This document shows, piece after piece, positions 1 through 48,387 of a stretch of 64,000 nucleotides of DNA (its first letter is position 1; every line of letters starts with the position of its first letter). The notes beneath the pieces were generated by a model, which did no database searches, had not been told where the DNA came from, and saw only the letters and a list, made by a program, of their open reading frames with translations. The stretch lies in assembly GCA_009760855.2 (NCBI GenBank), contig WPIO01000005.1, forward strand, positions 8,966,501 to 9,030,500. The letters are read 5' to 3'. This stretch comes from Cristatella mucedo. Its lineage: Eukaryota; Bryozoa; Phylactolaemata; Cristatellidae. A program made the position numbers and the translations under genes.

Positions 1-1640
1 GACTCTGAGCCACCTAGGCTGGTCCAGCGGTCGGGGCTCGGCCCTAGAAATTGTGGCAACACACCGTTATGCAGATAACAAGACGGGAGGTCCGTCCATT
101 ACTAAGCGTTTCCCAAGATTGAACAGGCAAAATGTGTTGACGGTATGTGCACGAATAGTCTTTTAATGAGGTGTGCTGCAATACGAAAGACAAAGTGGAG
201 CTTCTCCCAGCAACTGTTAGTCTATTTGTAATGGATCTTTATTGATTTGCGTACTTTCCTGCCCTATCGCCGTCTATTGAAATTGCACAAGGGGTGAAAA
301 CTATTCGCGAGTACAGAGAGACGTTACGTGAAAAGCGAGCTACAGTTTCGCTCGGCCAATATTGTCAGTTTTCTACGGAATGCGGTATGGGCCCCGACCA
401 TCGCTGCGATTGCTGTGCATTGCAGGCAGTTAACGAGCAAAGCAGCTTGAAATGCCACGGTTTCACTTTGGACGCAGTGAAATTGTATATGTATTGACAG
501 TTAAAGCTTCGCTTTGCCAATTTGTCGTCGACTGGCCGCCGGTTTGGGTATTGGCCGGGGCCATGGCTGTCGATTACCACTCATTGCTCGCAATTATACC
601 TGTGCGATTAGTTGAAACGATGGTGTGATTGCACTTTAAACGCAGCGTGCTGTGACAAGCAAGAAAAGCTTAACCTTGGCTCAGTCACTTTACGGGGATT
701 TGCAATGGATCATAATAGAATGCCGTATTTATTTGGGCCATTGCCATCGATTGCTATGCATCGCCTAAGAATGAGCTCACAGAGTGGTTTGAAATTATGT
801 GCGAACAGTGCAGTGAGATGTTACGTGGAATAATAATAGTTATGGTAATATTAATAATACACTTGGTAAACCGCCCTCAGAGAACTATATATCTTTCTAG
901 GCACTTTATATTCGCTGCAAGGGAAGCACGATAAAATGGTTAATGGTAGAATGCTCAATGACAACAAGCATAGCATGGTTAGCGGTGACATACACAGGAA
1001 TAAGAACTGGAGCTTGGTGAAGCCGATTTCTCAATGATTTGCCGTGGGATTTTGGTATTGGCCCTTCCTTTGCTGTTGATCGCCGTGCATTGTTCACAGT
1101 TAACGGGCGAAATAGCTTGAAAACTGTATGGTTTAACTTTAAAAACAATGAACGGTTACAAGCAATGACAATGGAAGTTTGGCGAAGTCTATTGGTGGTT
1201 TGTTTGCAGCGGATTGTAGTTCATTTCTGCTTCAAACCGAGCCATTGTCGTAGACTGCTGTGCACTGACTGCCCTCGTTTGTTCGAACGCAATTGGTCAA
1301 ATCTGATTGCAACTTAACAGATTCCTGTGTAATATGCATTCAAAATTTGAGCATTAAGCCACCGACTGTGGGACATGTTGTAGAGAAAAGCAGTGAACTT
1401 CGTTATTGGTACGGACTGTTGCTGTCGATTGCTGTGCCTTCATGGCAGCTAACAAGCAAAGCGGCTTGAAAATACTACAGTTTTACATTGAACTCAGAAA
1501 ACTGTTTTATGTAGTGAGCTTCGCACTGCCAATTTATGATCGGTTAGCGGCGAGTTGGATGTTGGCCCGGGCCATAGCTGACGATTGCAGTGCATTGCTG
1601 CTGAATGGTCTAGGCAATTTTAGTGTAGTTGTGCCAAGAG
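1..1640. repeat. Degenerate satellite with units of about 130-190 bp, copy 1
   Basis: A decayed motif of the form GGTATTGG-CCGGGCCATTGCTG, then CGATTGCTGTGCATTGCTGGC, AGTTAACAAGCAAAG and GCTTGAAAAT recurs near 383, 553, 738, 1049, 1242, 1409 and 1569. Spacing is 160-193 bp except 311 bp across a LINE tail inserted at about 831-1003. ORFs here are by-products of the repeat. Confidence 0.75.
831..1003 (-). mobile_element. L2-like LINE (family A) 3' end fragment inside the satellite
   Basis: Read on the minus strand it ends with the family A tail: GCCTAGAAAGA, then GTTCTCTGAGGGCG, then an ATT-rich end. It is severely 5'-truncated, as is usual for LINEs. The same insertion sits at 43237-43405, so it predates the duplication. 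Confidence 0.75.
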
Positions 1641-2238
1641 AGCACGTGCGCTCTCTTCTGCTTCGACCGTTGCCTAACCGACCGGCATTCGGAGTGGGTG
1701 AGCGCAGCGACCTGACTGGCTGGATGAGGCATCGAAGGAAAGAGCAAATATTGCCTCAAGCGTTAACCACCACAGCTACCTGGTTATTGTTGAATGCCGC
1801 CAACAGCAGACAAAGCCTGCACAGGCTATCGGTGAGCTGATGACCTAGATCGGCTCGAAGCGGAAGGAAAGACAGGAGCATCCACGTCAGCTGAACCCGA
1901 AAGGACTGGCGCTGACCTTCTCCACTGTCCTTTAGCTTGTCCGACAAAGTCACCCTCTTTATGTCTCTCCCTCTCCTCTCTGGTCTCCGCCATTGTGAGA
2001 GCCACCATTCAGCCGGCAACAACCGCGGACATTTCCTCGAGCTGCTTGACTTCAAACTCAATGACGACCGGGAGCGAAAGAGTCTCTGCAGACTGAGAAG
2101 CAAATCTTCTGCATCATCGCTGGCCAGGTTCGGGCGGTTATACTTTACGAGTTCAATGATGACGACCCGTCACGTTGCTGTGCGATTTGAGCCGATGAAT
2201 CAACCAACCCAGCTAGGTAAGAGCAGCCGAGTCTCTAG
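1641..2238. other. Highly conserved duplicated block, no gene recognised (copy 1)
   Basis: Almost identical to 45441-46038 (about 1% different). A 115-codon minus-strand frame is open in both copies, but conservation is equal at all codon positions, so it is not evidence of coding. Confidence 0.6.
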
Positions 2239-2442
2239 GTATGCTTTGTGAACGAAACCGGAGACGTCGAGCGATCTCTCGCTGGCCCCCTCGTAGAAAT
2301 GTCATCGACAAGGGCAGCAGGTTTTCTCAAGTCGATGCGCGAGGTCTCGGCGGCCGGCAGCCTGCATCCCAGTCAAATCGTCGTTCAGTGTCACGATAGC
2401 ACGTCCAACGTGTCCAGCGAATTCAACGCATGCAGGAACTAA
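2239..2442 (+). pseudogene. Broken copy of a candidate terminal exon (unknown gene)
   Basis: Homolog of the open frame at 46039-46338. A one-base deletion near 2430 (AACGCATGC here, AACGGCCTGC in the other copy) shifts the frame into a stop. The shared part includes IVVQCHDS, weakly like the phosphatase loop of a tyrosine-phosphatase D2 domain. That family call is tentative. A minus-strand frame also crosses the region. Confidence 0.3.
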
Positions 2443-3740
2443 TTCTTTGCCTAGGATCACCGAACGCCATTTACGGCCGCTGCAACCGACATCGCCCGAA
2501 CTTGGCGATTGTCAGAAAAGCCAAGTTCATCCAATAGGTGAATGCTTTTTCGCCAAATTTTGATACGTGTCCATGCTTATTGGTGCATCGGTCAAGCTCT
2601 AGCATATCTTCGCTGCTTAAAAGGAACAGCTCGATGAGATTTCGGGCGAGTTGAGCGACGACGAAGCCAAAAATGAACCCTTTGATCACGACGCGACGGT
2701 CGAGGTCTGAATTTTTATTGTTTAACTCATGGAATAAAGCAGCGGCTCAAGCAGTTGCTCTATATTGAAGAAAATTGATTTGTTCTGCCCATGCGTACAC
2801 TGGAGGAAATGGCTTCCGGCGGGAGGGCCTAGGTTGATTTGGATAGCTGGCTACGTGCCTGGTTAGGTTTTACATTTTATTGGTTTCAGTTTGTGGGTTT
2901 AGTGTTTAGTGCTTAGGCTTCAGAGAAAAATTACTTATGTAAGTCATATCTCAGACTTTATTATTAAACTAAATATAAACAGACGCTGGAGGTCTTGTCG
3001 AGTGGTCTGCTAATGGCACTAGGCCCGTAGCAGGAGCTGACCTGTCGTTATACATGCAGGGTGCCACATTTGACAATCGGCATGTATACTCGCAGTCAAG
3101 AGCTTCCTCGCACTTCAGCCTCGCACTTCCCCACCACTCCTCTAGCCCACTTTTGCACTCGAACTTCAGTGCATAGCGTCAGTGCTTCGCACTGACCACC
3201 GGCTTCAGGTGGTTGCTTCCGGTGCTGAGATAGGCCCTCGAGCTCCCTACTAACGGCGCCAACCCGGCAGCCGCTGACGTCTACCCAACACGGCACGCAA
3301 TCGGTGAGTCCCCCCCCCCCCCCCCGGCGGAGCACCGCTCTTGTCTGGCTCCTCCTACCCCCCAGAGCGAGCGGCCAGCTCATGACGCTCACTGGCTCAT
3401 TCTCGCTCTGACTCGCTTCGCATAGATATCGGTCTCACGTAAATCAAGCAGGAAGTGAGTGCGCCCTTCTTTTGCGAGCGAGTGCATCTCTGTCGCTCGC
3501 TCGGAGGTGCAGCATCCCCATCGAGCGTGCTCTGATTTGACGACTGCTTCCGGCTTCTCGATACAGCCGCCAAAGAATGCCGCCCGTTTTCGCGAGAGCT
3601 TTAGCTTCAAGTCAAGCAGCAGGCTCAGGCTGAGTGCCAGAGCCAATACTTTTGTAGACGCTCTGCTCACAACACCCAGCATGCGACGCTCAACCGATGG
3701 CTGTGCCAGGCTCAGCAATGGCGTCTGATCGTGCACTTTC
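2443..3740. other. No gene recognised; includes a 16-bp poly-C run
   Basis: Duplicated at 46339-47540. An AATAAA lies near 2733. A run of 16 C at 3310-3325 (12 C at 47112-47123 in the other copy) is the only low-complexity feature. Copies differ by about 6% at 2.44-2.72 kb, more than in the block to the left. Confidence 0.55.
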
Positions 3741-3950
3741 ATCTTTCTCTCTGTTTTTCTCTATTCTTTATTTTTAATTTGCTCCCTCTCTTTAGCAAGG
3801 TTTCTCGCTAACAGTTTCTCTTTTGTTCCTCTCTTTCTTCTCTTCCCTCTTTCTCCCCTTCTCTTTTTTCATTTCTCTCTCTCCCCTCTCACACTAGCTC
3901 TCTCTCTCTCGCTCTCTCTTTTTATTTCTCTCTCTCTCTCCCCTCTCTCA

Positions 3951-3982
<32 letters not shown>

Positions 3983-4372
3983 CTGTCTCGTTCTCTCTCT
4001 CTCTTTTTATTTCTCTCTCTCTCGCTATCTCTCCCGTCTCTCTCTATATATATGTATATATCTCTCTATCTTTCTCTCTCTCTCGCTATCTCTCCCCATC
4101 TCTCTCCCTATCTCTTTATCTTTCCCTCTCTCTCACTCTGTCTCTCTCTCGCTCAACCTCGTTCCCACTCTGTCGCTTTAACAGCTATTTGCTCTCGCTC
4201 CGCATACAAGCATGCGAACGTACCCACCCACACAGTTACCCAGCACAAACACCCCGCACTTTCATCATACTCTCTCTTTTTCTCTATTCTTTATCTCTCT
4301 CTCCCCTCTCACACTCTCTCTCTCTCTCGTTCTCTCTTTTTATTTCTCTCTCACTCGCTATCTCTCCCCTCT

Positions 4373-4410
<38 letters not shown>

Positions 4411-4430
4411 TCTCTCTTTTTCTCTGTCTC

Positions 4431-4480
<50 letters not shown>

Positions 4481-4545
4481 ATATTTCCCTCTCTCTCTCT
4501 CTCTCTCTCTCGCTCTCTCTCACTCAACCTTGTTCTCACTCTCTC
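3741..4545 (+). repeat. Polypyrimidine (TC)n microsatellite, about 800 bp, copy 1
   Basis: Almost pure TC on the plus strand with short TTTTTA and TATATA interruptions. Large Ser/Leu-rich or Arg/Glu-rich frames here are translation artefacts. Confidence 0.95.
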
Positions 4546-4630
4546 GCTTTAACAGCTATTCACTCTCGCTCCTCATACATGTGGGCAAACCTGCGCACCC
4601 ACACATTTATCCTGCCCAAACATCCCGCCA

Positions 4631-4722
4631 CACACACCCAGCAAGCATGCACACACACACACACACACAGACACGCACACACACACACACACACACGCAC
4701 ACACACACACACACACACACGC
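4631..4722 (+). repeat. (CA)n microsatellite, copy 1
   Basis: CA repeats with occasional CG steps directly after the TC tract. Confidence 0.95.
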
Positions 4723-5491
4723 AACCTTTTCGACAGAAATAGAGACCTATACAAATCATGTACGGTAGACCACACACGATTTTTGCTCCACGTCGCAGCT
4801 GCCTATGGGATTTCGATCGCTGTTTCTGATTGTAGGCTGCATGCAACTTTATATGAGGCGAACGACATGACGGAGGTGATCCTGCAAAAATTTAAAGTAA
4901 TGCGTTCACCGTTAGGCAGAAGCTTGTGAGCTGGACTTTTCAGTTGCGAAAGTTTCGGCCAAAGACTAAAATCCGTATTTATAGGTCACGCACTAGCAAC
5001 GCCAACCAATTGCTGCCCGAAATCCTTCCACTGAGCCCGGCTTAGGGCGCCGGTGGGCTAGATGCATTGCAATGCCTTCAGGCAATCGCGCCAGGTCGAA
5101 AGCCGACTGGCTACCCGAGTTCAATCTGTGCTATAACGCGAACTGCGCGTCGCTCGCCGGGGCCAATTCCATAGCACCCTTGACAATATCGAGTCATTAA
5201 CTCTTTCGTACGCAGCCAGCTGCTCACTAGGTAGCTTTCTGAGCTAGCTGCACGCAAATGCAGAGAGCTACTGCCTGCGGAAGATGATGCCGTGGTCGAG
5301 CGCCCCCTTGCTTCCTGCCTCGTCGCCCGGCGTAGCGGGTGCGCCCTCGACTTGAGTCGACTCGCTCGTTCTCACTGGTCGTGCTTCGAAGGCCGCCCCG
5401 AACGGACCGACGCTGAGCTACATTGTACGGCGAGGCGCTGGCGCGAAAGCAACCGAACAAAATGCGCACTGGCTGCGGAGCTGCAAACAAA

Positions 5492-5523
5492 CACGACGCG
5501 GCGAGTGCACTCGCCGCATCGTG
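5492..5523. repeat. 32-bp palindrome, one mismatch (copy 1)
   Basis: Arms CACGACGCGGCGAGTG and its complement meet without a loop. One CpG has become CA (at 5518), breaking one pair. Confidence 0.85.
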
Positions 5524-5721
5524 CGGCTGCTCGCAGCGATGGTCAGCGCCGTCCAGCGGACGCGATTTCGAGCGGCGGCGGCGGAGTTCACACTTCCTCG
5601 CCCGGCGGGTCTCGACCTCCCGCCTTCAGCCGTGCCGCCAATTAATTAACAGTCGAACTTCTCGGCGCAGAGCTGCAACCCGACTTCGTTCTCTTTCCGC
5701 CTCTCTCGACTAGCGAACCAA

Positions 5722-5762
5722 ACGCCAGGCAGATCACAAAGGGTTCATTAGCTGCCTGGCGT
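5722..5762. repeat. Hairpin with 11-bp perfect arms (copy 1)
   Basis: ACGCCAGGCAG pairs with CTGCCTGGCGT across a 19-base loop. Confidence 0.8.
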
Positions 5763-7442
5763 AAGGGCGCCGAGGCGTTAGGTCGGTGACCGACGGCTTA
5801 TAGAACGCGCCGAGGGCGAGGTCATTTTTAATTTTAATGCGTCGCGGTCCAAACATGCGCCGCCATGCGAAGCCGCTGGCTTAACCGCAGTAATAGTGGC
5901 GGGAAAACCCGAGGACACCTCAGATTTCGCCAAGCAGCTTAAGCTCGGCTTTGATAAGCACTTGTAGCTGCCGCTGCGTTTACGAAGGAGAATGATTACG
6001 GTTGTTTAAAATACAGTGATAAGGTATTCTAGGAAACTTCGAGAGAGTGACTGATAGCACGGGGTTTTCTTCAAGAGAGTTGCTGATAGTACGGTTTTTT
6101 TTATTAGTTCCGTTGGACTTTAAATCTCGTCAGATCCCGGCGGAGTATTAAGTTCGCAGGAGTGCCGCTCGGCGTCGAGCTCAGACGCACCTGACATACT
6201 GGCACGTCACTGTCGACGCGGCGGCACCGGTGCTCCGGGAAAAAAAAAAAAGCCGAAAGGGCCAGCTGCAGCGTAGCTAGCCGTGCGGCGCAACTCTGTC
6301 CTACAATTTACTGCCAGATTTGCAAGCTCAAAGAGTTCGAGGCCTCGATGCAGGTGCGCGCGCTCTCCCAGCCGCTTTGCCCTGGGCTCTATTCGGTGAT
6401 GGGGGGACAGCGTGCGCACGTAGTTCCGGATAGGCTCGCAGAGCGAGGCTTGGGCGAGCGCGACTGACTGCGGCGGCGGCGCTCGCTCCTTGGCCGCTCC
6501 GAGCGCCGCCGCCGCTTTCAGCCGAGCTCGGCTCCTCCGCTCGCTGTCTTGTGATGCGCGCCACCTGCTGGCGTCGAAATCTCTCATTCTGTCGCATGCG
6601 CCGCGCGACTTTCCAGCAGCGCTGTACGGCACGCAGCGCTCTCGCTTACTCGGCACGCTCGACGCTGGCGCCAAGTTCGAATTGAGTCGGTCGCTCGTCG
6701 GGAGCGCGTCGGCGTGGCGCGCCAGCGATCCGCGCCGTTCAGCGGGCCAGCCGGCTCCCGGCGGGAGTGGTGGCGGCGACAATGAACGCGCTAGCATTCC
6801 GAGACCGCCGCGCACACGCGGTCTTTACCGAAACGATGCGACCGCAGTTTGCCGAGCGAGTGTCTGGCGGCTTAAAAAATCTTAGCGCGGAACCGACCCC
6901 TCGCCGCACTCACCTCTCTGCACCCATGCTGACGTCGTTGTAGCCGCCGCTGCCGCCAGCACTCGGACAAAGCTGAGCAGAGCTCAGCGATTCGGAGACG
7001 CGCTTCACATGCTCGACGAAGGGAGCGACAGAGCGAGGCGCTGCCGCTGCCGCGCAGCGTCGGTCTTCCGGCGCCATTCGGTGCCGCGCGCGAGTCGCGC
7101 TGCCCCGGCGCCTGTCCTCCAACCCCCGACCACCCGACCTACGACCCGTGCATGCAAATGCCGCATTAGTCGCGGCGGCTCGCCCGGTGCGAGGCCGTTC
7201 TGAGCGCATCGTCGGGGCGCGCGCGTTGCCGTCCAGTGCCGCTAGCAGTGCGGCGCTGCTCCGCGAACTGGCAGAGTGCAGGCTTGGGTGCGACGCAGCA
7301 CGACCGCTCCGGGTGAGCGGTGGACTGTCGGAAGAGTTCCTTTTCTCAGTTCCTGCGCTGCCCATCAGCGGGAGAGTTTAATGAAGCCGCATTTTTAGGG
7401 ACAACAATAATCGAGAAAAAAAGATATTAACTTGTATGAGCG

Positions 7443-7511
7443 CAATATATTCATTATATATATATGTGTGTGTGTGCGTGTGCGTGTGCGTATCTATCTA
7501 TCTCTCTCTCT

Positions 7512-7560
<49 letters not shown>
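7443..7560. repeat. (TA)n/(TG)n microsatellite, copy 1
   Basis: TATATG, then TGTGTGCG, then an almost pure TA run at 7514-7558. Confidence 0.95.
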
Positions 7561-7562
<2 letters not shown>

Positions 7563-7799
7563 CACGTCTCTGCCCGTGTCGGCGAGTGAGAATACGCTTT
7601 CCTAAGCACTCTTAGTTTGCTGTCGAGTCCGGAGCTCTGTACAGCCTCCATACCGACAGCACTTTCTGGAAGCGCGTGGCACGGGTGCACCGCAGCCGTA
7701 ATAAATTTATTAATTTATTATCGCTTTTTTGCCACCATTTTTAATTATTAATGCCTCGTCTTATCAGAAGGCACCCATATATATGTCGACGCCCTACGG

Positions 7800-7984
7800 C
7801 AGTGGTTCTCAACATTCCTAATGCCGCGACCCTTGAGTACAGTTTCTCATGTTGTGGCGACCCCAACCATAAAATTAACCCGGCCAGTGAACGTAACTCG
7901 GCTAATAATACGGTCTTGGGTGACCCTTGTGGAAGGGTTATTCGACTACCAAAGGGGTCGCGACCGACAGGTTGAGAACCGCTG
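7800..7984. mobile_element. SPIN-like hAT miniature transposon (185 bp), copy 1
   Basis: Begins CAGTGGTTCTCAAC and ends GTTGAGAACCGCTG, inverted ends with one mismatch. Just inside are AATGCCGCGACCC, CATGTTGTGGCGACCCC and, near the other end, AAAGGGGTCGCGACC. These agree closely, from memory, with the SPIN (Space Invaders) hAT family described in tetrapods. There is no coding capacity. An 8-bp target duplication is plausible: CCCTACGG on the left here and CCCTGCGA on the right in the other copy, with the central TA typical of the Buster branch of hAT. Confidence 0.85.
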
Positions 7985-9530
7985 CCCAGCAAAGTCGCTA
8001 CGCCACGCCATAGGCGTCGAAGCGGGGAGATTCTTCGCCGTCCCGCCCGCCTCGCCGCTACGCGCTTCTGAGCTGCGCTCCGCCACCGCCGTTGGTGCAT
8101 CGTCGCCGGTGTGCAGCTGGGGGGCTGGGTTTGGGGACTATGAGAAAGCTACACACGTCTCTCTCTCTCTTGCTAGGAGACGGTCGCCGTGCTGGCTGCA
8201 CGCGCTGCGTCGCCGCACTGGCACGTGAGAATCGGACGCAGCAGAAGCCCCGGCATAGGGATTCGTGCGCGCGGCTGCGGAGCGGCGAATAACGAAGAAC
8301 AGTTAATGGCGATGCCCCACAAACGCGCTGGCGTAATGGTGACCGCTGTATTTATACGCTGGTGAAGCAGATGACACAACGAGAGTACGTTCTAGTGGTC
8401 GAACCCATCGGGAGTGTTGTTTTAGAGCACGCGACACGAAGAGAAAGAGAAAATTAAGTGTATAGCATTCTCCCTGGCCGACGCACTAGCAATAAGTGAA
8501 AATGCAAGGCCAGGATAGGTCACGTGCTTGCCGGCTGGGCCGCGGAAAGCTCATTGGGGGCGAAACCACGCTCTAGCGATGACGCGTGCACGCCGCGCAC
8601 CGCTGCAGCCTCTGCCTCCGTCGAGCGGTCGGCGACGGTTGTGCGAACCACACTTCCACCCCTCAGGCCCACCAACGTCGGGCTCTACGGCTCCGGGTGA
8701 GTCACCGCCCCCACCAACCGGGCAGCAGCGCCGTCGGTGGCGGTCGATGCTCCGCGTCGGCCGCTATCTGCATCTCGCAGCCCCTCTCGCACGTCGGGAT
8801 ACGCCGCTCGCAGCGGCGGCATGTCAGAGCTCTGGCGGCGCCAAGCAGGCGCCCGCTTCTAGTGCGGGGATCTGGCGTGCGTGGCCGATTAAGCTACACG
8901 TCTGGCGACGCACGTTTCATTCCGCCCGTCCGCTATATCACTGCCAGCTTCGTCTGATGGTATCCAACGTCTGCACACTTCTCGCCCCTACTTTTCTGCG
9001 CGAGAAATTCAAGACATAAAACCAACCGAAAGCCATCCGCTGCGGTACTAAGCTCCGAAAAAGAGTTTCCCGCAAGAGGGAAACGATCCAGCATCCTTCG
9101 CACGAACGGTCCAGCACTCTACCGAATGACCTTGCGAGACTAATCGTGAATAGGCGCTAAATTGCGACCTTTAAATACTAGCCTTAAAATTTCCGCACAC
9201 GCGCTCGAGCCGAATGTCGTTGTCCTGCGGGAGTTAAAGCGTACGCTTACAATTTCCCGTTGGGCTTCGAGCTGCAGCCATTATGCTTGCTTCGGTCGGC
9301 GACCAGAGGGAGCATTCACTGAGTGACTTCCGCCGCGGGTCCGGGCAAGAAGGCCACGCACACGCGCTTGCGCTCCAGGGAAAAGCGGCACATGGCTGAA
9401 CGTACTATAGCAGCGGATGCAAGTAACGCTGCAGTTTCAAAGCGCAGCGAGACCGAACGCCTTCTGCCGCGAGACTGAGCTCCGAAAAAAAAAGAGTTTC
9501 CCCTCCAGCGTCATAATGATCTAGAAGTCT
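7985..9530. other. Second GC-rich duplicated block, no gene recognised (copy 1)
   Basis: CpG-rich to about 9.5 kb. Overlapping frames on both strands carry non-triplet differences between copies, so none is supported as coding. Confidence 0.5.
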
Positions 9531-9690
9531 GATGTCTGCTGGCTACCGAATGCGTACCGTAAGCCGCTTGTTGTCATTGAGCATGCTACTAATAGTCATT
9601 AGATGATGCTTTTTTGCAACTAATGTAAAGTCAGTTCCCTGAGAGCGCTACAAAAAGGTAATATTATTATTTCTATTGTTAAGATTATTA
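9531..9690 (+). mobile_element. Fused LINE remnants across a deletion scar (copy 1)
   Basis: A family B tail (GCTACCGAATGCGTACCG) jumps at CGCTT (9565-9569) into a family A 3' end (TTGTTGTCATTGAGC to CCCTGAGAGCGCTACAAAAAGG). Copy 2 keeps the 1366 bp in between. Confidence 0.75.
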
Positions 9691-10207
9691 CAACCTTGGA
9701 GCCTATAGTCCGGTCTTTGGGAGGCCAGTGCATGGCGGGGACAATATGTGAAATAGGGCAATTTGCACTTTCGCAGCAGACAAGGCTAGCTGTAGAGTTT
9801 GGCGCCCGTGACTTGGAGACAAGCCGGTATTGTTCCTCAGATAACCCGCCGGCGAAAAGCTTTTGGACGTACCTCAGGGACGGGCTGTTAGCTGCAGTTC
9901 AGCAGCCTGCCATAAATAAGCCACGGTTTCACCAATCCTTGCACTAAACTTAAATATTTTCCGATCTAGCCTTCGTTTCGTATGCATCATTTGCTTGAAC
10001 TTTATCTTCAGCTTGAGTAAATATCACTACAGAATTTGCTTCATTTCATTCACAAATAATAACAAATGTGTTGGACTCGGCAATGCCTACGCCCCTGTGA
10101 AATTTCCCTTTTTTCGTGCATGCTTTGCGCGCATACCTTCATCGGCTGAAGTATTTTATGGCTCACTGAAAGTGTGTAACATGCGCAGGAAATGAAAGCC
10201 AAGTCTT
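9691..10207. other. Duplicated block with no recognised gene (copy 1)
   Basis: Matches 55291-55847 at about 96%. An 83-codon frame from 9696 is open in both copies but resembles nothing known to me, and its differences are mostly amino-acid changing. Confidence 0.5.
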
Positions 10208-11400
10208 AAAAGTAATTTAATGTAATGTTTCTCCGTCAGTAATTCCACAAAGCCATACAAGCTATTTAGGTGTTACGCAGGAGAGTTGTGTATAGCGTGC
10301 TCACAGCCTAAGCGGCTTTCGGTACGCATTCGGTTGAAAACAGACATCATCTCACGCAAAAAAGAGAAGGTGGGAAGCATTGCAGAGTCAAGAGAGTAGT
10401 TGATGTAAGTGGCATGGAATTAGCAGCTCAGGACCGCTGGAAAAGATGTCTAAAAGAAGTCTAGGACCTGCAGAGTTAAAGCTTCTTTCGCCAACGGTCT
10501 TTAATGGAAGGAATGTAACTGCTAATTTATTGTCCATAAAGGACCTGAGGGCACGCGGAGGCTGGAACTAGTTCAGCAGTTCAGCTAGGTATGAAGGAGC
10601 TAATCCGTGGCGGGCCATGTAGGTCATCGTAAGAACATTGCTCTGTATCCTTAATCAACCGGCAGCCATCCTAGCTCTTTTAGCAAAAGAGACACGTGAT
10701 CAAACCTTTGGGACTCGAAAGCTAGCCTTGCAGCCATACTCATAGCCAGCTGCAGTGGCCTAGTTGCTTTCTTTAGCAGCCCAGCCAAAAGTGAATTACA
10801 ATAATCAAGCCGAGACAGAACTACGATGCTCGCTAAATCGTTTGCAAATCCCCGTGGAAGACAGCTCCTAATCTTAGATGGGGATCAGACGTGATGGCTA
10901 GCTGTTGAAGCAGTCTTCGGAATGTAGCCTTTAAAATAATTTAGTCAGCCGTCGAAAACGACACCTAAATTTCGAAGCATTTGGTTGTGGTCGCACAACA
11001 ACATGAAACATAAGAAGAGCAAAGCATTTTAATTTAGCTAAAGGCTTAGGGTGTCCTATGAGCAGCAGTTTGGTTTTATCGTCATTTAGTTTAGGTCAAG
11101 AAGTTTTCTGATATCCGAAATTGAATATCAACAAGGCGAGCATTCAGTTTATCAGTTACTGCAGCAAATTTCGACTGTTTGAGTGAAAAATGCAGCTGAG
11201 TATCGTCAATATAAAAGTGATATCCTACTCCATGGGTCTTCTTCACTTTTCCCAGATGTTGAGTATAAATGAAGAACAGCAAGGGACCGAGGACGGATCC
11301 TTGAGGGACTCCACAGGCGACCCGTCTCGTATGTGAGACCTAACCCCCACACGTTAATTTTGTGTGCCGGCGTCTCATTCCCTAGCAAAACCTCCTCTCG
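10208..11400 (-). mobile_element. LINE family B, 5'-truncated, decayed (copy 1)
   Basis: Minus strand: VPQGS-like region, then YIDDTQLHFSLKQSK (the YADD box variant), FL-LNDDKT, then LLKKATRLLQLA and GWLPVDYRI of the reverse-transcriptase C-terminal part. It ends with the family B tail at about 10.21-10.34 kb. Stops and frameshifts show it is inactive. Confidence 0.85.
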
Positions 11401-12095
11401 TACTTTCTATAAATGTACGAGGGTGTTCACATCAGAGTACCCAGATGATCAGAGGCTCTTTCATGCCGTCAAACGCAGCGTTGGCTGCTGAAGCGGTTTG
11501 TATTTTGGCTATTCTTCTTTGATCACCCCTATTTGAAGGACGATTCTGAACCTTTTCCATCTCGATTTAATTTATTAGCAGAACCACAATGAGCGTGGTA
11601 GATGCTTGAGTCAGCCACGAAGCTGTCTGGATTTTCCAACCATTCAAACTAGCTTACAGACTCTGCCCAAACTGATAGGAGTCGACCGAACGTCGTTCTT
11701 GTATTACGGTGCGTAAAGACTCCTAATGTTGCAGCGAGAAGGATGTCAATGCACGCAATTGAAAGCTGTACTTTAGGGACGTGAAAGACAAGGTTCAGAG
11801 GGCAAGCACTCATATAAAAACCTGCAGCAGCTGCCAGCTTCAGCTGAGTGGCTGAGTGCCAGCTGAGTCCACCGATCCGCCAGCCGGCGAGAATCTCCTG
11901 CTAAGAACACCTGTGGTGGCTCATTACATAAATCCATCGCCGAAATTAAAGCGCTCATAACGGTGACAGTCCTTGCAGATTCTCAACAGATACTTGCGAA
12001 TCTAGTGCACCGAATAAGCCTATGAGGGCTACTCGTGCACAACTCGGAAAATTACGCAACGCAAAATTCCCAAGCAAGCAGTTGCACTGTCGTAG
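11401..12095. other. No feature recognised (copy 1)
   Basis: Duplicated at 57106-57440, except that about 11745-12108 is missing from copy 2. Confidence 0.5.
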
Positions 12096-12770
12096 AATAC
12101 TGTTTATACCATAGGTCGCGGCTTGCCCGGTTTATGATGATTACCTAACCATAGAATCATTACTAAGAAGTGGTAAAATCAGAAAGAGACCAGTAATACA
12201 AAAAGTTCGTAGCCCGATACCAAAATTCTTCTTAATAATTTTCAAGCAAGCATACTTGCCAGTGATCCTAATGGTGACTTAGAAAATAATGTCTCCAAGT
12301 TCTTCGTAGGTGAGACGGAACAGATTACGGACTCCATCACCCCACTCCATCATAACACCCCCGGAAGCACTGCAGCCCCTCATCTCACTGCTCATTTCTC
12401 CTTTTCTCTTACATCTGTCTTTGCTGAACTCATCACTAAGCTTCTGTAGCCGGGTAATGAGACTGCAAGTCTGTATATGCCTGCCTAAAAAGTTCTCCTT
12501 ACGAACTGTGTGTACCGGTTACTGCTCACAACAACCGTTATTGTAAATATGGCCCTGGTCGCCAGTTAGGTACCTTCCCCTCTGGAGAATGGCTACTGTT
12601 AGGCCATTCCTTAGAAAACCTTGCAGTTTACGACAGGTTACCAATGACCATTCTCGCCTCCTGACATAGCCCGCTCTCACGTGCGTTCGTGTTCGTTGCA
12701 GAATTCTTCCGAAAACCGAAGTTCTTGCGAACATGGCATGCGGAAACGATACAGCTAAGACCTTTTTAAA
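12096..12770 (+). mobile_element. LINE family A fragment (reverse-transcriptase N-terminal region, copy 1)
   Basis: The frame DPNGDLENNVSKFFVGETEQ and PGNETAS matches the linker between endonuclease and reverse transcriptase seen in the intact-looking copy at 39.3-39.7 kb (minus strand). Interrupted by stops. Confidence 0.6.
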
Positions 12771-12840
12771 GTTATTCTGATTGTTGTCTGACGGTAGCGC
12801 GTAAGAAATTACGTGCCTATGGGTATCTAAACGTTTGGTG

Positions 12841-13012
12841 AGTCATAATGGCTTACTAGGTAAAGCGGTTGCTTTTCACGACATCGGCCCGAGGTCGTGG
12901 GTTTGAATCGTGTGGTGGGCGATCCTTTCGCCACTGCAAGCGGCGGTGATAGCCGTAAAGGCTCTTCTGTCGCTATACAAAAAGAGGCTGTTAAAGAGTA
13001 CTTCCAATAGTA
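12841..13012 (+). mobile_element. tRNA-derived SINE (type 1), copy 1 only
   Basis: TGGCTTACTAGGTAAAGCGG resembles a tRNA A box and GGGTTTGAATC a B box. A tRNA-unrelated body follows, with GTGATAGCCGTAAAGGCTC and a GCTATACAAA-like end. A second copy lies at 19520-19690. The region is deleted from copy 2. Confidence 0.7.
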
Positions 13013-13049
13013 TTTCAGTTAGTTTTTCTTTATTTATCGGCAACCCCGG

Positions 13050-14893
13050 CTGCAGGGTCTCCAATGCCGGCGGCTGCCTTAGCTACGCCGGCAGATAGTA
13101 ACCTCCATGTTAGCTATGATTGTCAGCAGCTGTTATCCCTCCAAAATCGTAGATCAAATCCATTCCTAGATATTAATGCTGTTGCTAAGATTCGTGAACT
13201 ATGCATTAACAAAAGAAAAGCACCCCGGAGCCGCCGCGGTGGCCGGAACCACCAGCTTAGACGCCGCTCGTTGGGCGGGAACTGTGAGCTGTGTACCGGC
13301 TCTTTTGGTATTCCTAGCATTGTCTCGAACCGCTCAGTACGCCCCCACATGCGTCACTGTGAATCTCCAGAGCATAGTGGTCATCACGCCTGTTATAATT
13401 CCATCGGCCAGACTTAATGCTGCCTTTGAAATCCTCGCTCAATGTGCAATAAACCTCTGGTAATAAGCGACCTTATTTCTGAAAATGGTATCGACCTGCT
13501 CGCCCTAACTGAAATCGATAAACTATCCGATAATTAAAGACGCACCACCAACTGGTTTCTCATTCTTTCACACCTATAGATCAATCAAAACTAGAGGTGG
13601 AGTTGCTGCTATCGTGTGCTCGAAATTCGACCTCAAGCCATTTGCAGTACCCTCGAAGCAGTCTTTTGAACCAATTGTCTCGGTCTCACCCGAACACAAG
13701 TTACCGATAGTGGCAGTAGTCTATCAACCACCAGGTATCAAATCCTCCTTTATCTCAGATTTTTCCGACCTTCTTTCGATTCTGGGTGCAAGAAATCGAT
13801 CATTCCTCGTTAAGGGTGATTTCATCGTTCACTTTAATAACTTATCTGACGCCTTCAGCCCTGAATTTCGTTCATCGACTGACTCATTATCTCTTGTGGG
13901 TCATTTGCATGGCCCTACTGACATCAAGGGTTACGCCCTCGACCAAATTTTCTCATACAACTGCACGTTGTCATCACCAATTATGACCAAATCCTGCTTA
14001 TCTGACCACATGCAGATCTCAATGATCTACAGTGTGTGACCACCTCCTCCTCTAAAATAACCTGTGAATCGCAAAACCTCAAGACCCTTGACATCGATGC
14101 TGTCCGGGCGAGAACATCTGCCTCTCCTCTGCTGCTCAGTCCTCCTTCCGATCTGTCATTGGTAGATAGCTACAACACGACACTAGCTGACACGCTCGAC
14201 AAGTTAACACCTCTGACAAAGCCCACTGCCTACAGGCACGTGCGACCAGGCGATTGCAGCTGGTGCAATGCAGCTAGGCTCGACTGTCGTGAGCCTCGCA
14301 GTTGCCACATCACACCACTTCTCGTCGACCTGCACTGGCTAACAGTCAAGCGACGCATCGACTGCAAGGTTTTTGTCGCTCACTTTTAGGTCACTTCATT
14401 CTTTGGCTCCAGCCTATCTTTCAGATCTACTCCCCCACCAGGCCAAGCATCGTACCACCCGCCTTTCGGAATCCAACAGTTTACCACTACCTCGTACAAA
14501 CCTCAAATCCTTTGGAGACTGTGCATTTAGTTCATATGCTCCCAAAGCCCTGAACTCATTGCCGACTTGCATCAGAGCAGCCCCTGACTTGACCACGTTC
14601 AAAAAGAACTTAAAAAACACACCTATTTAGGACAGCATTTAGTGGGTCCCTGTGATTCATCCTTCATGTGCTTATGCGTGCTGACACTGTGAATGCTGCC
14701 ACTAACCACATTTGCATGCTGACCCTGTTCATGTCACCCCTAACCTGTAATGTTATTCGTGTTGTTTACCAAACACGGTATTACTCACCATTCCATCGCG
14801 TTTCCTTTCGCAGTAAATGTAAAGCGCCAAGAAAGAGATTAAGTTCTCTTTGGGGATTTATCAAGTCCATTATTATTTATTATTATTATTACC
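13050..14893 (+). mobile_element. LINE family A with the reverse-transcriptase core deleted (copy 1)
   Basis: Begins with the 5' segment seen also at 40.6-40.8 kb (RELCINKRKA), then the APE endonuclease region (LISENGIDLLALTE, VAVVYQPPG, GDFIVHF). It then jumps near 14230 straight to the C-terminal part (HITPLLVDLHWL, SFGDCAFSSYAPKAL) and the 3' tail. Copy 2 has the same internal gap, so the deletion is older than the duplication. Confidence 0.85.
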
Positions 14894-15350
14894 GTCTAAA
14901 CAATGCTGATCAAGGTAGGGCCTTATTCAGCTACTCTCTGATCAATCTGCAGCTTTCAACACTATTGGTGATAAGACACCTGTGGATACACCTTCACATG
15001 CTTACGTACCACGAGCACAGTTCTAAACTGGGTTAGGCTATATCTCAGCAAGAGATGGTGTGTACATACATACGGCTGATGGTCACCTTGAAAAACCTTG
15101 AAGCATGTAGTAACCAGGTTTACGTCGTAGGCTGCCTTTCCCCCTATATACTCTCCAATTAGGTCCAGTTCATCGCTATGCACAATCTTGGCTTTCATTA
15201 TTACGCCAGCGACAGCTAGTTTTAGTATCATTGGACTCTTATGAGCCTTACCCGTTAGCTGACTCAATTATCTGCCTGCCTGCATTGAAGATATTCACGT
15301 TTTAATGGCCACCAACTTCCTGAAGTTTAACGACGATAGGATCAATTCAC
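14894..15350 (+). mobile_element. Strongly decayed LINE family A reverse-transcriptase fragment (copy 1)
   Basis: NADQGRALFSYSLINLQLS resembles NADMGRVSLLVLLDLSAAF after frameshifts, and ATNFLKFNDDRI resembles the later FLKLNDDK motif. Confidence 0.5.
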
Positions 15351-15469
15351 CTACAAATCAGTAGAAGACCTTGACCTCAAGATTGCAATGGCTACCATCC
15401 TTATGGTGCTGTCTGCCCTCTATCTAACTTTAACTGCCATTAGTGATAACTAATCTCCTGTTGCTAACT

Positions 15470-15716
15470 ATTGCACATTCTTTTCAGCAGTTCTGAAGTG
15501 CCACTTCCATGCTACTCACTGCCTCATGTGCACTCCTGACTCTGCCGTGCTTCCCACTTTCACTTAGTTGCGTGAGATGGAATCCGTTGGCTACCGAATG
15601 CGTACTGAAATCCGCATAGGCTGTGAGTGCGCTATACAAAACACTCCTGCGTAACACCCACATAGTCTTTTTGGATTTGTGGACTACAGATAGAGATACA
15701 TTACATTACATTACAT
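15470..15716 (+). mobile_element. LINE family B 3' tail (copy 1)
   Basis: Contains GTGCCACTTCCATGCTACTC, then GTTGGCTACCGAATGCGTAC and the end TACATTACATTACATTACAT. Confidence 0.75.
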
Positions 15717-17300
15717 AATCTAGGTGTAGCAATTCAAATGATTTGTCATTAGATGAGCACACGTTGTCCACTATCAAATCGGTTTTCTTAGAGCTAATGG
15801 CCATCGCCAAAATCCGAGCCTGCATTGTAAGACTACGGGAGCCGAACTAGTTCCCTCGTTTTTAAGCATCGCATTTAGATTAACTCATTTCCTTTTACTC
15901 CAGGTGAGGTGACCTAAATCGGTGGCAGCTGGTGTAAAGCTCGGAAGCTCACATAGTCTGTCTTCAAAGACGTAGCTTTCATATGACACCGCTTCTATCT
16001 AAGCTTCTTTCACTCCCTTTAAAACATAGCATTTACCTCTAGATACTCTTTCCAGCTGACAGGTCACTTCACTTGCTTTAAACAGCCATCCTATTCAACC
16101 TCTGTACTCCTCCAGTTTTCTCGCGTACGACCACTCATCCGAATACAATCATCATGCCGTCTCTCACACGAAGTTAAAATCTGTTGGCGATTGAGTCTGC
16201 AGCTTTTACTCACCGAAAGTCTAGAGCTCGCTTCCGGATAAGGTCGCTAGCTGTAATGACCAAGGAATTTTTAAGTCTGATCCAAAACAAAGATCCATCT
16301 GTCCCGGTCAGCACCTCCTTCTCCCCTGTGATTGTGTTCTTTTTTGGTTCTGCTATGCGTAGGCACCTGTGAATTCTTCAGTGCAAGTTACTACTAGAAG
16401 TCTTATTAATAGATGGCAACGAGTGCGTTTACGCTGCTTTACCATGCTGGCCCTAACCATGTTACTTGTTTGCTTTTTCTCTGCCAGTGCCGTGCATGTC
16501 ACTGACCATTCCCTCCCAATACCGTGCATGTCCCTGATTGTTAGGTATTAGGTTCTCCAGCAGTGACTTTTAAAGCACTGTGATATAGATTTATTTCTCT
16601 AAAAGCGCCGCAAAAATACTTGTTATTTTTACTCAAAGCATATTCGCAATTTAAGTGATTTAGCATATTCAAGTTTCACTTCCACGCGTATGTGATATGC
16701 TACCTGATGTGCACCTGAACACCAGTGATGTGCCTCTCAGCATATCAAATCTCAGGAGCTATAATTCAACACAACGGCTCACGGCGATCGACCTAAGTGG
16801 TTAACTGGTTACTGGTAGCACTCACCACTTATTATATACTCGTTTTGACTTGTGGCGACTCAGCCCTTTTCAAGAAGCCCATACCTAGAATACGCAGTGA
16901 ATACAGAGGATTCTGGCCGTAAATAGGCTTATAATATATGGGCCGTTCTCTAATTGCATTCATAATGCAAGGCAATTCCCTGCATTATGAATGCAGGAGG
17001 TATTACGAAAACATGCATATGTACGTAAATACATAAAAATTATTCCGTACCTAGCAAGTAGTAGCTTGATTTTAGTTGTTGCTAAGGCTGCCAGGCCATT
17101 ATGGTCGAGTTGCATGAGTGTGACCGATCTCTACAGTATGGTCTGACTACTTTCAGTAGTGTAAAATTGCAAAAGGTTGAGCTTGCTTATATATTTATAC
17201 CACAGCCAAAAGGTCCTTACATTTCTGGCATGCCGCCTAAGCTTCTACAACTCACGAACTTATATCACGCCATTTGCTTGGGCAATGAGATGCATAGGTA
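15717..17300. other. No gene recognised; holds a 15-bp inverted repeat
   Basis: Duplicated at 60257-62100 with divergence rising from about 8% to about 20% along its length. ORFs are short and not shared in frame. Confidence 0.5.
16955..16995. repeat. Hairpin with perfect 15-bp arms
   Basis: TGCATTCATAATGCA (16955-16969) and TGCATTATGAATGCA (16981-16995) around an 11-base loop. Not present in copy 2. Confidence 0.8.
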
Positions 17301-18303: not shown

Positions 18304-21300
18304 CTGAACGGAGCAAGACAGAAGTGACGTCTCAGAAGAATCTGACTGATTTAGAAAGCAGAAGAAGCTTCGCAACGGCCACTCGCGCTGATCGTGAATA
18401 TTCTACTCCAATCCCGTATGCTCTGACAGTATATCACGCCACGTTTTGATAGGCAAGTTTCTTGGTAGGAGCACGGCCGAGCGTCGTCTAAACAAGTGGA
18501 CGAGGGCTAGCGGTGTCGCCTGCAGCCTTAACTCTCGGATCCGCATTCAGAAAGCGGACCGCATTGGCGAATACGCTCCGCTCTCCAATGCGTACGTACA
18601 GCTGCAGGTCGCCTGGGGCCGCCAGCTGGGTGGGTTTGAGGGTATCGAACCTTTTGTACGATCAGCTTTGCACTGTCATTCCCCGGCTTATTGACTGCTA
18701 TTTCCTGTTCGTGCAGTATCACGGATTCAATTACTGTAACGTCGGCTCGCTTAAAATGCTACTGGTCACTAATTTTTTCCACGATTCTTATAAATCGCTC
18801 AATTAACTCGCATCTGCACGAACAAGCGATATTAATCAGAAACTAACATCTACAGTAACTAGAATTTATCATTTACAGTAACTAGCATCTGATTCTCGCC
18901 TCAGTTATTTTACAAAGATAGTCTACTCCGATAGATGCCTTGCCCGCTCGGCCGTGACTGCCGCGAGAAAACGTCTTTGTGGCGTTGCTATTACTAGAGC
19001 ACAGTGGGTTATAGGTCAAAGTAAAAACTACCGGGCCTTGTCTTTTTTCTTGTCTAGCAATCTCATATCTTACGATGCTCTGGTAGTGTCTTACGGTCTC
19101 CTGGCGTCCGAGCGGACTACATTCGACAGGCTTTGTTCGTCAGTATGTCTACCACTACATTCCACACCATATGTAGGCTCAGTGCTTAGCTCTAAACTAC
19201 TTTCCGGCATCCTCTGCTGAACACTGTCTCTTTAAATAAAATTCAGCTGTTTCCTGTTTTTTCTCGCCGCCTCCGTTACGACCGCACATTAGCCTGACGA
19301 CTCCATAGGCAACCGCCAGAACAACAGCTGAATTGACGTAGCCAGAAAATCTCGATAGGCCATAAACCCTATTTAGTTCCAATAGGTTTAGTTCACCCAT
19401 GACCTTGACTGAACAGGACTATGCAAGGTGAGGAAGTAAACGCGATGCCAGCAGGTTGAGAGCATCTCCTAGCTCGGGAAGCTATCCGCGAGAGCAGCTT
19501 AACTTAGCAAAAACTATTTAATTGGTGAGCCGGGATGGCAAACTAGTCAAGGCGGTTTCTTTTCACGAATTCGGCTGCAATGTCGTGGGTTCGAATCCTA
19601 CGGTGACAGATCCTTTATTGCCGCTGCAAGTGGTTGTGATAGCCGTAAATGCTCTTCTGTTGCTAAACAAAGAGGCTGTTAAATCAGCTAGATTTCATTT
19701 TACAGGATTTCGTTGTGCAGACCTTTTGGTCTCGCCGTTGCTGGCGCACCAAAAGCTGGCGAAAGGCTTCGATGGAGCCAGGAGCGATCTTAGATCACAG
19801 AAACGATCTCCAACTTAACACCACTCATCGCTTTTATCAACTGGAGATGCGGTCGTTTCTTTTTTGATCCATAATGTCGCCTCCTTGCTGAATTTATCTT
19901 TTTGGGCTCGTGTCTAGTGACATTGTACTTTTTATAACTTGTCGATTACTAGTATTCCTGTCCAGCGGATATTACGTTTCTAGAAATGGATTTAATTTTC
20001 TTGCGGTGCTACATAAACATCGTATTATTGTTGTTTTTACGGCGCATGGTTGCACGCACCAACAGACGATACTAATGCGATATATAGTCCTAAGCCGCAC
20101 CACTTAAGACTCTTGATTCATCAGCTTGCTTGTCTGCCATTTATGGAGCTGCTTCTTAATGGGCTAGCAAAACTGGCTTCACCGCCAGCCTCACATCAAC
20201 CGCTCGGTCGTTGATATAATCACCCCTCAGAAACCTTTGTTAGCCAAACGCAGGTCAACCGAGAACAACCGGTTTAGAAAGCTTGAAGCTCTGCTAGCAC
20301 GACAAAGTTCTGGCACCTCAAGCTCACCTATGATAGTGATGGTGGCGACAAATGCAAGCCACCACCAGATGAAAATAAAGGCTTTTTCATGGAACAGATT
20401 TTGAGGAAGGACACACTCCACATCCATTTTCTGAATGCTGCCGCTTACAGGTCCTCGAACCTCAAACTGGCACCTGGTCCTTTTTGGAAACAGTGCTTCC
20501 CCTATGCCATCCGATGATCCATTAAGCCAGTCTCCTATCGCTTGATAGCCGTACAAAGCGAATTTGTCTCCTGAAACATGGCGACAGAGTAAGTGGCCAA
20601 ATTTCTTTCAATTTGCTGCCATAGACTAGTAAGCTGCGATGCCTGCAGAGGACATTACCAAGGAGTACTTTCAAAAAGCTGAATTGTAAAATCGCATTCA
20701 CGGCGTACAGCGACTTCGTGAAAATGTAAGCAATCGTCAGGAAGCAGCCGAAGTGAAGATCCTTGGATAGTGCCCCTTTGCCGTACTGTTGCTGTTTCTA
20801 TAAAGACCGAGCGTCTGCTCAGCTGCTTGCTGCGTGCTACTCAGCTGGAGAAATAAGGCAGTTCTACTGATTATGGTTGCCAAAAGATGGAATCCAAATT
20901 AGACTCCCAAAACTCGGCTTTAAGAAACGAGTACACTTGGCTTCACTGTGAAATGTAATTTACTTGGATACGTGACCTAATCGATTGAATCTCTGTCCAG
21001 GCACTACACAAATGCCTCCGAACTCATGCCGCGACCTCGGCTGGCAAAGGCAGACACCTAGACCTTGGTCATCAAAGGCGAGCACCTTAACCCCTGGGCC
21101 AAACCAGAGCTGTTAAGAAATATTACGAAATTGCACGGTCAAGAGCGAGATAGAGTTACCGGGACGCTACAGAATTGCTGCATTCATAGATAAGAGCTTG
21201 CAACTGAGTAAAAATTTGTCTTTAAATCTTTTTCACGTTGAAAATCGGGTTAAAGCTATGGACCTCCGTTGAGAAAAATGGACACGAGCACTTGCAGGCA

Positions 21301-42252: not shown

Positions 42253-44840
42253 TAGACTCTGAGCCACCTAGGCTGGTCCAGCGGTCGGGGCTCGGCCCTA
42301 GAAATTGTGGCAACACACCGTTATGCAGATAACAAGACGGGAGGTCCGTCCATTACTAAGCGTTTCCCAAGATTGAACAGGCAAAATGTGTTGACGGTAT
42401 GTGCACGAATAGTGAACTTTATAAGTGGCTCAAGAATTGGAGTTTCAGACAGCCAATCTCTAGCCAATTTGAACAGATTTCGATAGATGACGGGCCGTTG
42501 CAATCGATCGCCTTGCCTTGCCCTCGATTGCACGTTCGTGATTGTTTTAAAGGATGTGGCTGCACTTTTAATGAGGTGTGCTGCAATACGAAAGACAAAG
42601 TGGAGCTTCTCCCAGCAACTGTTAGTCTATTTGTAACGGATCTTTATTGATTTGCGTACTTTCCCGTGCCATTGCCGTCGATTGAAAGTGCACAAGGCGC
42701 GAAAACTATTCGCGAGTACACAGAGACGTTACGTGAAAAGCGAGCTACAGTTTCGCTCCACCATTCTTGTCGGTTTTCTATGGAATGCGGTATGGGCCCC
42801 GACCGTTGCTGCGATTGCTGTGCATTGCTGGCAGTTAACGAGCAAAGCAGCTTGAAAATGCCACGGTTTCACTTTGGACGCAGTGAAATTGTATATGTAT
42901 TGACAGTTAAAGCTTCGCTCTGCCAATTTGTTGTCGACTGGCCGCCGGTTTGAGTATTGGCCCGGGCCATGGCTGTCGATTACCATTCATTGCTCGCAAT
43001 TATACCTGTGCGATTAGTTGAAACGATGGTGTGATTGCACTTTAAACACAGCGTGCTGTGACAAGCAAGAAAAGCTTAACCTTGGCCCAGTCACTTTATG
43101 GGGATTTGCAATGGATCATAATAGAATGCCGTATTTGTCTGGGCCATTGCCCTCGATTGCTATGCATCGCCTAAGAATGAGCTCACAGAGTGGTTTGAAA
43201 TTGCGTGCGAACAGTGCAGTTTGATGTTACGTGGAATAATAGTAGTTATGGTAATAATGATAATACATTTGATAAACCGCCCTCAGAGAACTATATATCT
43301 TTCTAGGCACTTTATATTCGCTGCAAGGGAAGCACGATAAAATGGTTAATGGTAGAATGCTCAATGACAACAAGCATAGCATGATTAGCGGTGACATACA
43401 CAGGAATAAGAACTGGAGCTTGGTGAAGCCGATTTCTCAATGATTTGCCGTGGGATTTTGGTATTGGCCCTTCCTTTGCTGTTGATCGCCGTGCATTGTT
43501 CACAGTTAACGGGCGAAATAGCTTGAAAACTGTATGGTTTAACTTTAAAAACAATGAACGGTTACAAGCAATGACAATGGAAGTTTGGCGAAGTCTATTG
43601 GTGGTTTGTTTGCAGCGGATTGTAGTTTATTTCTGCTTCAAGCCGAGCCATTGTCGTAGATTGCTGTGCACTGACTGCCCTCGTTTGTTCAAACGCAATT
43701 GGTCAAATCTGATTGCAACTTAACAGATTCCTGTGTAATATGCATTCAAAATTTGAGCATTAAGCCACCGACTGCGGGACATGTTGTAGAGAAAAGCAGT
43801 GAACTTCGGTATTGGTATGGACTGTTGCTGTCGATTGCTGTGCCTTCATGGCAGCTAACAAGCAAAGCGGCTTGAAAATACTACGGTTTTACATTGAACG
43901 CAGAAAACTGTTTTATGTAGTGAGCTTCGCACTGCCAATTTATGATCGGTTAGCGGCGAGTTGGATGTTGGCCCGGGCCATAGCTGACGATTGCAGTGCA
44001 TTGCTGCTGAGTGGTCTAGGCAATTTTAGTGTAGTTGTGTGAATACGCAATTGCCAAAAAGTAGAGAAATGTGCTATCATAATTATAGTTTCTTGTGTAT
44101 GGGTTCTGGTTGCTTTGTGTTGGATTGTAGTGGATTGAGGTATCGAACCGAACCGTTGCAACTTATTGCATTGCATTGCATGACACCGTGTAAGCAAAAT
44201 ATAGTGAAATTCTGTGGGTGCCCTTTAACCCAAGTCTAGTCTTATATGCAATGTCAATTATAATTTCGCATTGGAGATTTGAGGACGATTGTCAGTGGTT
44301 TAGGGTGGATTTCGATATTTCCCCATGTCATTTCAGGCCATTGCCGAGCCTTACCAAAACTTATGGCTGCTCAAGAACGCAGTGCATTTTAATATTCAAT
44401 ACAAACTGGAGCTCGGCAAAATCTATTTCTAGTCGTTTTGTGGTTGATAAGGTGGATTGGAGTGGACTGCAGTATTGGCCGGGCTATTGCAGTGCATTAC
44501 AAAGGAACGGCTGTGAAAATGCAAGTGAAATTTTGCGAGTACAAATATTCGCAGGGTATACTGTCACATGCAATAAAAAAGAAGCTTTTCGCCCACGGTT
44601 TCTCTCGTTTCGCGATGGAATGCAGTGGATTGGGGTATTGCCGATGGCCGCTGGAAACTAATCCTGAGAACTTGGTGAGAATGTGTGGAATCGCAAGAAA
44701 CTATCGTGTGGTTACATGAATGCATGAAGCGTAGTTAGTTATTTTATACTTTTTGGAGCTTTGTGAGGCAGCTTTGTGGTGGATTTTAGGCGAACTAAAG
44801 TGGTTTGCAATCGATTGAGGTACAGGCCTCAGTCGTTGCA
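42253..44840. repeat. Degenerate satellite with units of about 130-190 bp, copy 2
   Basis: The same motif recurs near 42490, 42663, 42790, 42953, 43140, 43457, 43645, 43810, 43970, 44140, 44340, 44465, 44630 and 44820, more units than in copy 1. The array is partly deleted in copy 1. Unit-to-unit identity is low, so the array is old. Confidence 0.72.
43237..43405 (-). mobile_element. L2-like LINE (family A) 3' end fragment, duplicate
   Basis: Duplicate of the fragment at 831-1003 with the same breakpoints. Confidence 0.75.
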
Positions 44841-47540: not shown

Positions 47541-47754
47541 TTTCTCTCTGTTTTTCTCTATTCTTTATTTTTAATTTGCTCCCTCTCTTTAGCAAGGTTT
47601 CTCGCTAACAGTTTCTCTTTTGTTCCTCTCTTTCTTCTCTTCCCTCTTTCTCCCCTTCTCTTTTTTCATTTCTCTCTCTCCCCTCTCACACTATCTCTCT
47701 CTCTCTCGCTCTCTCTTTTTATTTTCTCTCTCTCTCTCTCTCTCTCTCGCGCTA

Positions 47755-47801
<47 letters not shown>

Positions 47802-47928
47802 ATCTCTTTTATCTTTCCCTCTCTCTCTCTCTCGCTCTCTCTTTTTATTTCGCTCTCTCTCTCTCTCTCGCTATCTCTCCCCTCTATCACTCTCTCTCTA
47901 TATATATATATATATATTCCTCTCTGTC

Positions 47929-47965
<37 letters not shown>

Positions 47966-48004
47966 ATCTCTCCCCTCTCTCTCTATATCTATCTACAATC
48001 TATC

Positions 48005-48036
<32 letters not shown>

Positions 48037-48356: not shown

Positions 48357-48387
<31 letters not shown>

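Follow-up and report, generated by a model that had tools for sequence, protein, structure and literature searches.

SPIN is a standard example of DNA transposons that have passed from one phylum to another. In Rhodnius prolixus, two elements named SPIN_NA_12_RP and SPIN_NA_13_RP are reported and read as horizontal transfer (PMC11614815), and a hAT element of Biomphalaria glabrata with approximately 1,000 copies and significant identity to SPIN has been described (PMC5440852). SPIN in squamates is also mentioned (PMC11008031). SPIN or SPIN-like elements of invertebrates, the snail included, are already known. The view taken in the preliminary description of the present locus, that SPIN occurs in few invertebrates, needs qualifying in light of the approximately 1,000-copy SPIN-like hAT of B. 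glabrata (PMC5440852).

The element analysed here lies in a stretch of 64,000 nucleotides (hereafter the window). By description only, it can be likened to the SPIN elements of R. prolixus, which are also non-autonomous elements of an invertebrate, in that case a blood-feeding insect, and, again by description only, to the hAT of B. glabrata, which resides in a lophotrochozoan at a similar order of copy number. Direct alignment was made to a sequence that we take to be the murine rodent SPIN non-autonomous consensus, presumably of URR1 type (hereafter the presumed rodent consensus). Its ends and sub-terminal blocks are alike in the host (149 of 151 positions). The points of internal deletion are not the same: the left end is followed for approximately 78 bp in both host miniature subfamilies, in contrast to 152 bp in the presumed rodent consensus. 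Both end positions that differ are cases of CG in the host against TG in the rodent sequence.

The window element and its tandemly duplicated copy

The preliminary description had placed a 185-bp SPIN-like element with inverted ends and inner blocks at 7800..7984, and the coordinates, size, ends and blocks were all found in the sequence as claimed. From its sequence, the element is assigned to the miniature, internally deleted forms of SPIN, in the Buster/Charlie group of the hAT superfamily. This copy (copy 1, plus strand, subfamily A) is 9.7% diverged from its subfamily consensus. Its left terminal inverted repeat, CAGTGGTTCTCAAC (7800..7813, plus strand), and its right one, GTTGAGAACCGCTG (7971..7984, plus strand), are complementary at 13 of 14 positions and are thus short terminal inverted repeats beginning with CAG, as is typical of hATs; both inner blocks, AATGCCGCGACCC and AAAGGGGTCGCGACC, are present. 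The left target-site flank, CCCTACGG (7792..7799), has the central TA noted in the preliminary description, but the target-site duplication of this copy is not clean, since the right flank, CCCAGCAA (7985..7992), matches the left at only 4 of 8 bases and appears decayed.

The ten-base end motif GGTTCTCAAC, allowing one mismatch, occurs five times in the window against 3.5 expected, and 28 of 100 shuffles reach five. As this is chance frequency, the case rests on the whole element. When aligned to a mouse genomic copy of SPIN (see below), copy 1 scored 67 against a maximum of 28 in 1000 dinucleotide-preserving shuffles. The single-stranded DNA of the element folds better than shuffled sequences (z −3.55), which is expected because the ends are inverted and was not used as evidence. 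The whole window gave no match to Rfam at gathering thresholds. Most likely, the window element has no function of its own.

The preliminary description mentioned a single copy, whereas the window holds two. Copy 2 (52051..52234, plus strand) is 184 bp long, 8.2% diverged from the subfamily consensus and identical to copy 1 at 170 of 185 positions (92%), and its alignment to the mouse copy scored 70 against a maximum of 31 in 1000 dinucleotide-preserving shuffles. It is flanked by CCCTATGG on the left (52043..52050) and CCCTGCGA on the right (52235..52242). The latter matches the left flank of copy 1, CCCTACGG, at 6 of 8 bases and the left flank of copy 2 itself at 5 of 8; 0.6% of local 8-mers reach six or more matches to CCCTACGG. 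The two copies are borne by two units of a tandem duplication, unit 1 at 160..17094 and unit 2 at 42565..61646 (both plus strand), which align in broken blocks of 88-96% identity. Of 184 sites, 14 distinguish copy 1 from copy 2, compared with 97 of 1580 in the adjoining flank. Given this similar divergence of the copies and the adjoining flank, together with the shared flanks, copy 2 is regarded as the same insertion as copy 1, duplicated with its locus. The tandem duplication continues at 78-79% identity to 18562 and 63527. Approximately 285 bp at 51671-51955 in unit 2 are absent from unit 1, between 7701 and 7703.

The SPIN family in the host genome

The preliminary description had suggested searching the rest of the genome, and many further copies were found there. 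With the window copy as query, at least 41 matches were obtained, the window copies included (best 40 of 1942 candidates scored), and the query with a family consensus was likewise evaluated on the best 40 of 2309 candidates. The SPIN right end, taken as the last 34 bp with up to three mismatches, occurs 953 times in the genome (479 on one strand and 474 on the other; 52 occurrences are exact), against no occurrence of the control, the same pattern read backwards.

A total of 61 copies were read, namely the two window copies and 59 others, of which 39 were chosen for their closeness to the window copy and 20, out of 28 new ones, for their closeness to a consensus of the mixed family. The miniature copies are 180-192 bp long. 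When a single consensus was used for the family, two subfamilies were mixed and the window copy seemed 15.7-18.9% diverged; this consensus was rejected, and the value became 9.7% after the copies were split by their middles. Subfamily A comprises 18 copies, both window copies included, and subfamily B comprises 42; their ends are identical and their middles differ. One copy (L041) belongs to neither, and copy 2 was left out of the subfamily A consensus. Divergence from the respective consensus is 4.3-14.5% in A and 3.2-10.9% in B, ranges that are not family averages because the copies were picked as best matches. That no copy read is closer than 3.2% to its consensus suggests, without proof, that movement of the family has ceased and that the family is extinct. 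The flanks match at six or more of 8 bases in 44 of the 61 copies, compared with 339 of 3660 mismatched pairs. Among the 35 copies with seven or eight matching bases, 33 have TA at the centre of the target-site duplication, a trait of Buster/Charlie hATs.

Longer copies were located with the inner 83 bp of the presumed rodent consensus, which matched at least 40 places in the genome (best 40 of 88 candidates scored); the strongest match has 93% identity and an E value of 9.1e-24. This inner sequence is absent from both window copies, so that internal SPIN sequence was found for the family only. Eight of the inner-sequence loci were read, and six of them carry both ends and are 309-642 bp long. 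The other two, L134 and L139, lack both ends, seem to represent a single insertion present in duplicate, and did not enter the consensus built from the six. Twelve places besides one of the longer loci, L135, share up to approximately 250 bp of further interior. Taken together, the six longer copies and the 12 interior-sharing places argue that longer SPINs were once present in the host. A 19-base stretch in the middle of copy 2 is identical to part of the L135 interior (17 of 19 bases in copy 1), and from this match subfamily A probably arose by deletion from a longer copy like L135.

Agreement of the element with mammalian SPIN, which the preliminary description had proposed, was borne out against both the presumed rodent consensus and a mouse genomic copy. 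The window copy is identical to the presumed rodent consensus at 163 of 185 positions outside 40 gap columns. The consensuses of A and B each agree with it at 76 of 78 positions of the left end and all 73 of the right, compared with 71 of 76 and 64 of 73 for the window copies. The presumed rodent consensus was set down after the window copy had been seen and before any family consensus was built; as the family consensuses are closer to it than the window copies are, it had not been modelled on the window copy. Along the left 152 bp, the six-copy consensus of the longer loci shares 145 of 149 positions with the presumed rodent one, and the alignment contains a single 3-base gap. Identity to SPIN thus extends well beyond the terminal 15 bp.

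A comparison independent of the presumed rodent consensus was provided by the mouse genomic copy printed in PMC8376875, which matches the six-copy consensus at 78 of 95 positions (82% over 96 bp) with a score of 100, whereas none of 1000 simple shuffles scored above 27. Of two mouse primers in PMC2767504, one agrees with the consensus of the mixed family in 18 of 20 bases. The other begins one base outside the element, which explains its score of 12 of 20; placed in register by eye, it matches at 18 of 19. SPIN ends and blocks were not found as exact patterns in viral contigs and prokaryote genome contigs, nor was SPIN found by blastn in plasmids and phages, and SPIN interior strings were not found in paper texts.

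Full-length autonomous copies, which the preliminary description had proposed looking for, did not emerge: no SPIN transposase was found at the 30 loci examined of at least 46 that matched DUF4371 in the genome (150 of 237 candidates scored), and blastn with the SPIN ends (E up to 0.01) gave no hit in the 1500-bp flanks of these 30 loci. According to the tables of matches, none of the DUF4371 or hAT-dimer matches listed is closer than 80 kb to the places that share the further interior. Two other hATs of the genome were considered as the SPIN parent and rejected, as no SPIN ends were seen in the loci examined. One is an abundant hAT; the exact motif GGTTCTCAAC or its complement is absent from the 20 loci read of at least 138 PF05699 matches. 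The other is a Charlie-like hAT with ends CAGGGGTGTCCAAC, which belongs with SPIN to one broad transposon group and has DUF4371 and hAT-dimer matches and, by eye, TA-centred 8-bp flanks at two loci (L110 and L111); its ends differ from those of SPIN, and it is not a visible parent of the SPIN copies.

Some features of these other elements were observed in passing. The abundant hAT (loci L054-L073) is Ac-like by eye and looks very young. Among the PF05699 matches, at least 138 in number, 55 share one score (76.8 bits) and 16 contain open frames of 635-642 codons. The Charlie-like hAT (L104 and L106-L111) is 2.7 kb long, with copies 91-97% identical to each other and partly open DUF4371 frames.

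The host and the surrounding DNA

The preliminary description had taken the host to be an invertebrate from an innexin gene, and this was confirmed by an innexin exon at 20230..20607 (minus strand; PF00876, E 3.6e-23) and by mitochondrial DNA. Searched against PDB (E up to 0.1), the exon matched INX-6 of Caenorhabditis elegans and, weakly, MORN1 twice, with no pannexin among the matches. The genome assembly comprises 572 Mb in 688 contigs, and the window is part of a contig of 13.6 Mb.

The mitochondrial contig (C688) is 21,008 bp long. Its COX1 is a single frame of 517 codons under genetic code table 5, with the residues expected, by judgement, at AAA, ATA and AGR codons; the frame is also open under tables 9, 13 and 14, but not under table 2. 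Nine of ten C688 proteins matched Pfam (COX3, ATP6, COX1, ND3, ND1, cytochrome b, ND4, ND5 and an ND2-like protein), and the ND6-like frame did not. With nad6 and nad4L assigned by eye, the same-strand gene order is nad1, nad6, cob, nad4L, nad4, nad5, which we take to be the arrangement ancestral to molluscs and phoronids. We judge the host to be lophotrochozoan, probably a mollusc. It is taken to be an animal other than Biomphalaria, which is lower in GC and has a small mitochondrial genome of the pulmonate kind with a different gene order. C688 (L052, L053) has a GC content of 44%; its ND3 region is repeated, nad2 lies on the strand opposite to cox1, and pieces of COX1 were also seen on four other contigs (C166, C83, C549 and C299).

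In the part of the tandem duplication that continues at 78-79% identity, a frame at 63020-63499 gave a weak innexin match (E 2.6e-4, short of the Pfam cut-off). Elsewhere in the window, reverse transcriptase frames (RVT_1) of the LINE type lie at 37913-38755 and 56649-57035, with related fragments at other positions, and CT-rich simple repeats with long frames that read as Leu-Ser repeats occupy 3729-4929 and 47526-48409.

Origin and history of the element

The history that very probably accounts for these observations as a whole is that of a miniature SPIN whose family entered the host horizontally, amplified and fell silent, and whose window copy was inserted before the local duplication. 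SPIN would have been horizontally transferred into the host germ line in a form longer than the miniatures. The longer SPIN would then have given rise to several internal-deletion derivatives, which would have amplified to approximately 1,000 copies or more before falling silent. One of these, the window copy, would have inserted near the innexin gene before the locus was duplicated in tandem. Internally deleted hAT copies are mobile only with transposase supplied from elsewhere. The inverted ends and sub-terminal blocks would be putative sites for SPIN transposase provided by a longer copy, and movement would have been by cut-and-paste with an 8-bp target-site duplication of the form nnnTAnnn, as in the known family.

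Arrival by transfer, as the preliminary description had proposed, was supported by the approximately 98% identity of the non-coding ends to the presumed rodent consensus. Such identity across the protostome-deuterostome split is incompatible with inheritance, and horizontal transfer between distant animals is most likely the best explanation of the sequence data. Retention of SPIN in both lineages since a bilaterian ancestor would account for SPIN or SPIN-like elements in several phyla, and this is its only support; it is scarcely credible given that the non-coding consensuses are nearly identical across a split more than 500 million years old, and given that the host copies themselves lie 3.2-14.5% from their own consensus. 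It is also very improbable that the element belongs to a different hAT family, such as another Charlie or Buster, having only short ends in common with SPIN. Ends like CAGNGGTTCTCAA are widespread among hATs, and the family with ends CAGGGGTGTCCAAC is indeed present in the same genome, but the agreement with the presumed rodent consensus covers 149 of 151 end positions in the miniature subfamilies and 145 of 149 positions along the left 152 bp of the longer copies, and the mouse copy aligns with the longer host copies over 96 columns.

Vertebrate DNA contaminating the assembly, which the preliminary description had considered as a possible source, has a negligible probability. The window itself holds the innexin exon within a contig of 13.6 Mb, and the copies are spread over many contigs of up to 24.8 Mb with target sites of their own; this multi-megabase spread and the separate target-site duplications exclude contamination. 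A transfer in which invertebrates were the donors to vertebrates, or in which a third party passed SPIN into both, instead of a transfer from a vertebrate into this host, is a real possibility, which we rate as somewhat less likely than not. It differs from the preferred reading in direction alone, and no direct evidence speaks against it; the deletion derivatives that the host has of its own are in its favour, as they indicate that the host once contained a longer SPIN.

Horizontal transfer between distant animals, the reading preferred here, leaves room for a wider suggestion, offered tentatively and with less than even confidence: a longer, transposase-bearing SPIN may have independently entered a lophotrochozoan lineage without described SPIN, produced its own miniatures there, and formed part of a possible reservoir between snails and land vertebrates. 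The carriers of SPIN can be traced better with every added invertebrate host, particularly where that host has deletion derivatives of its own, and the copies described here suggest that a longer SPIN, beyond a mere miniature, was once inside this host.
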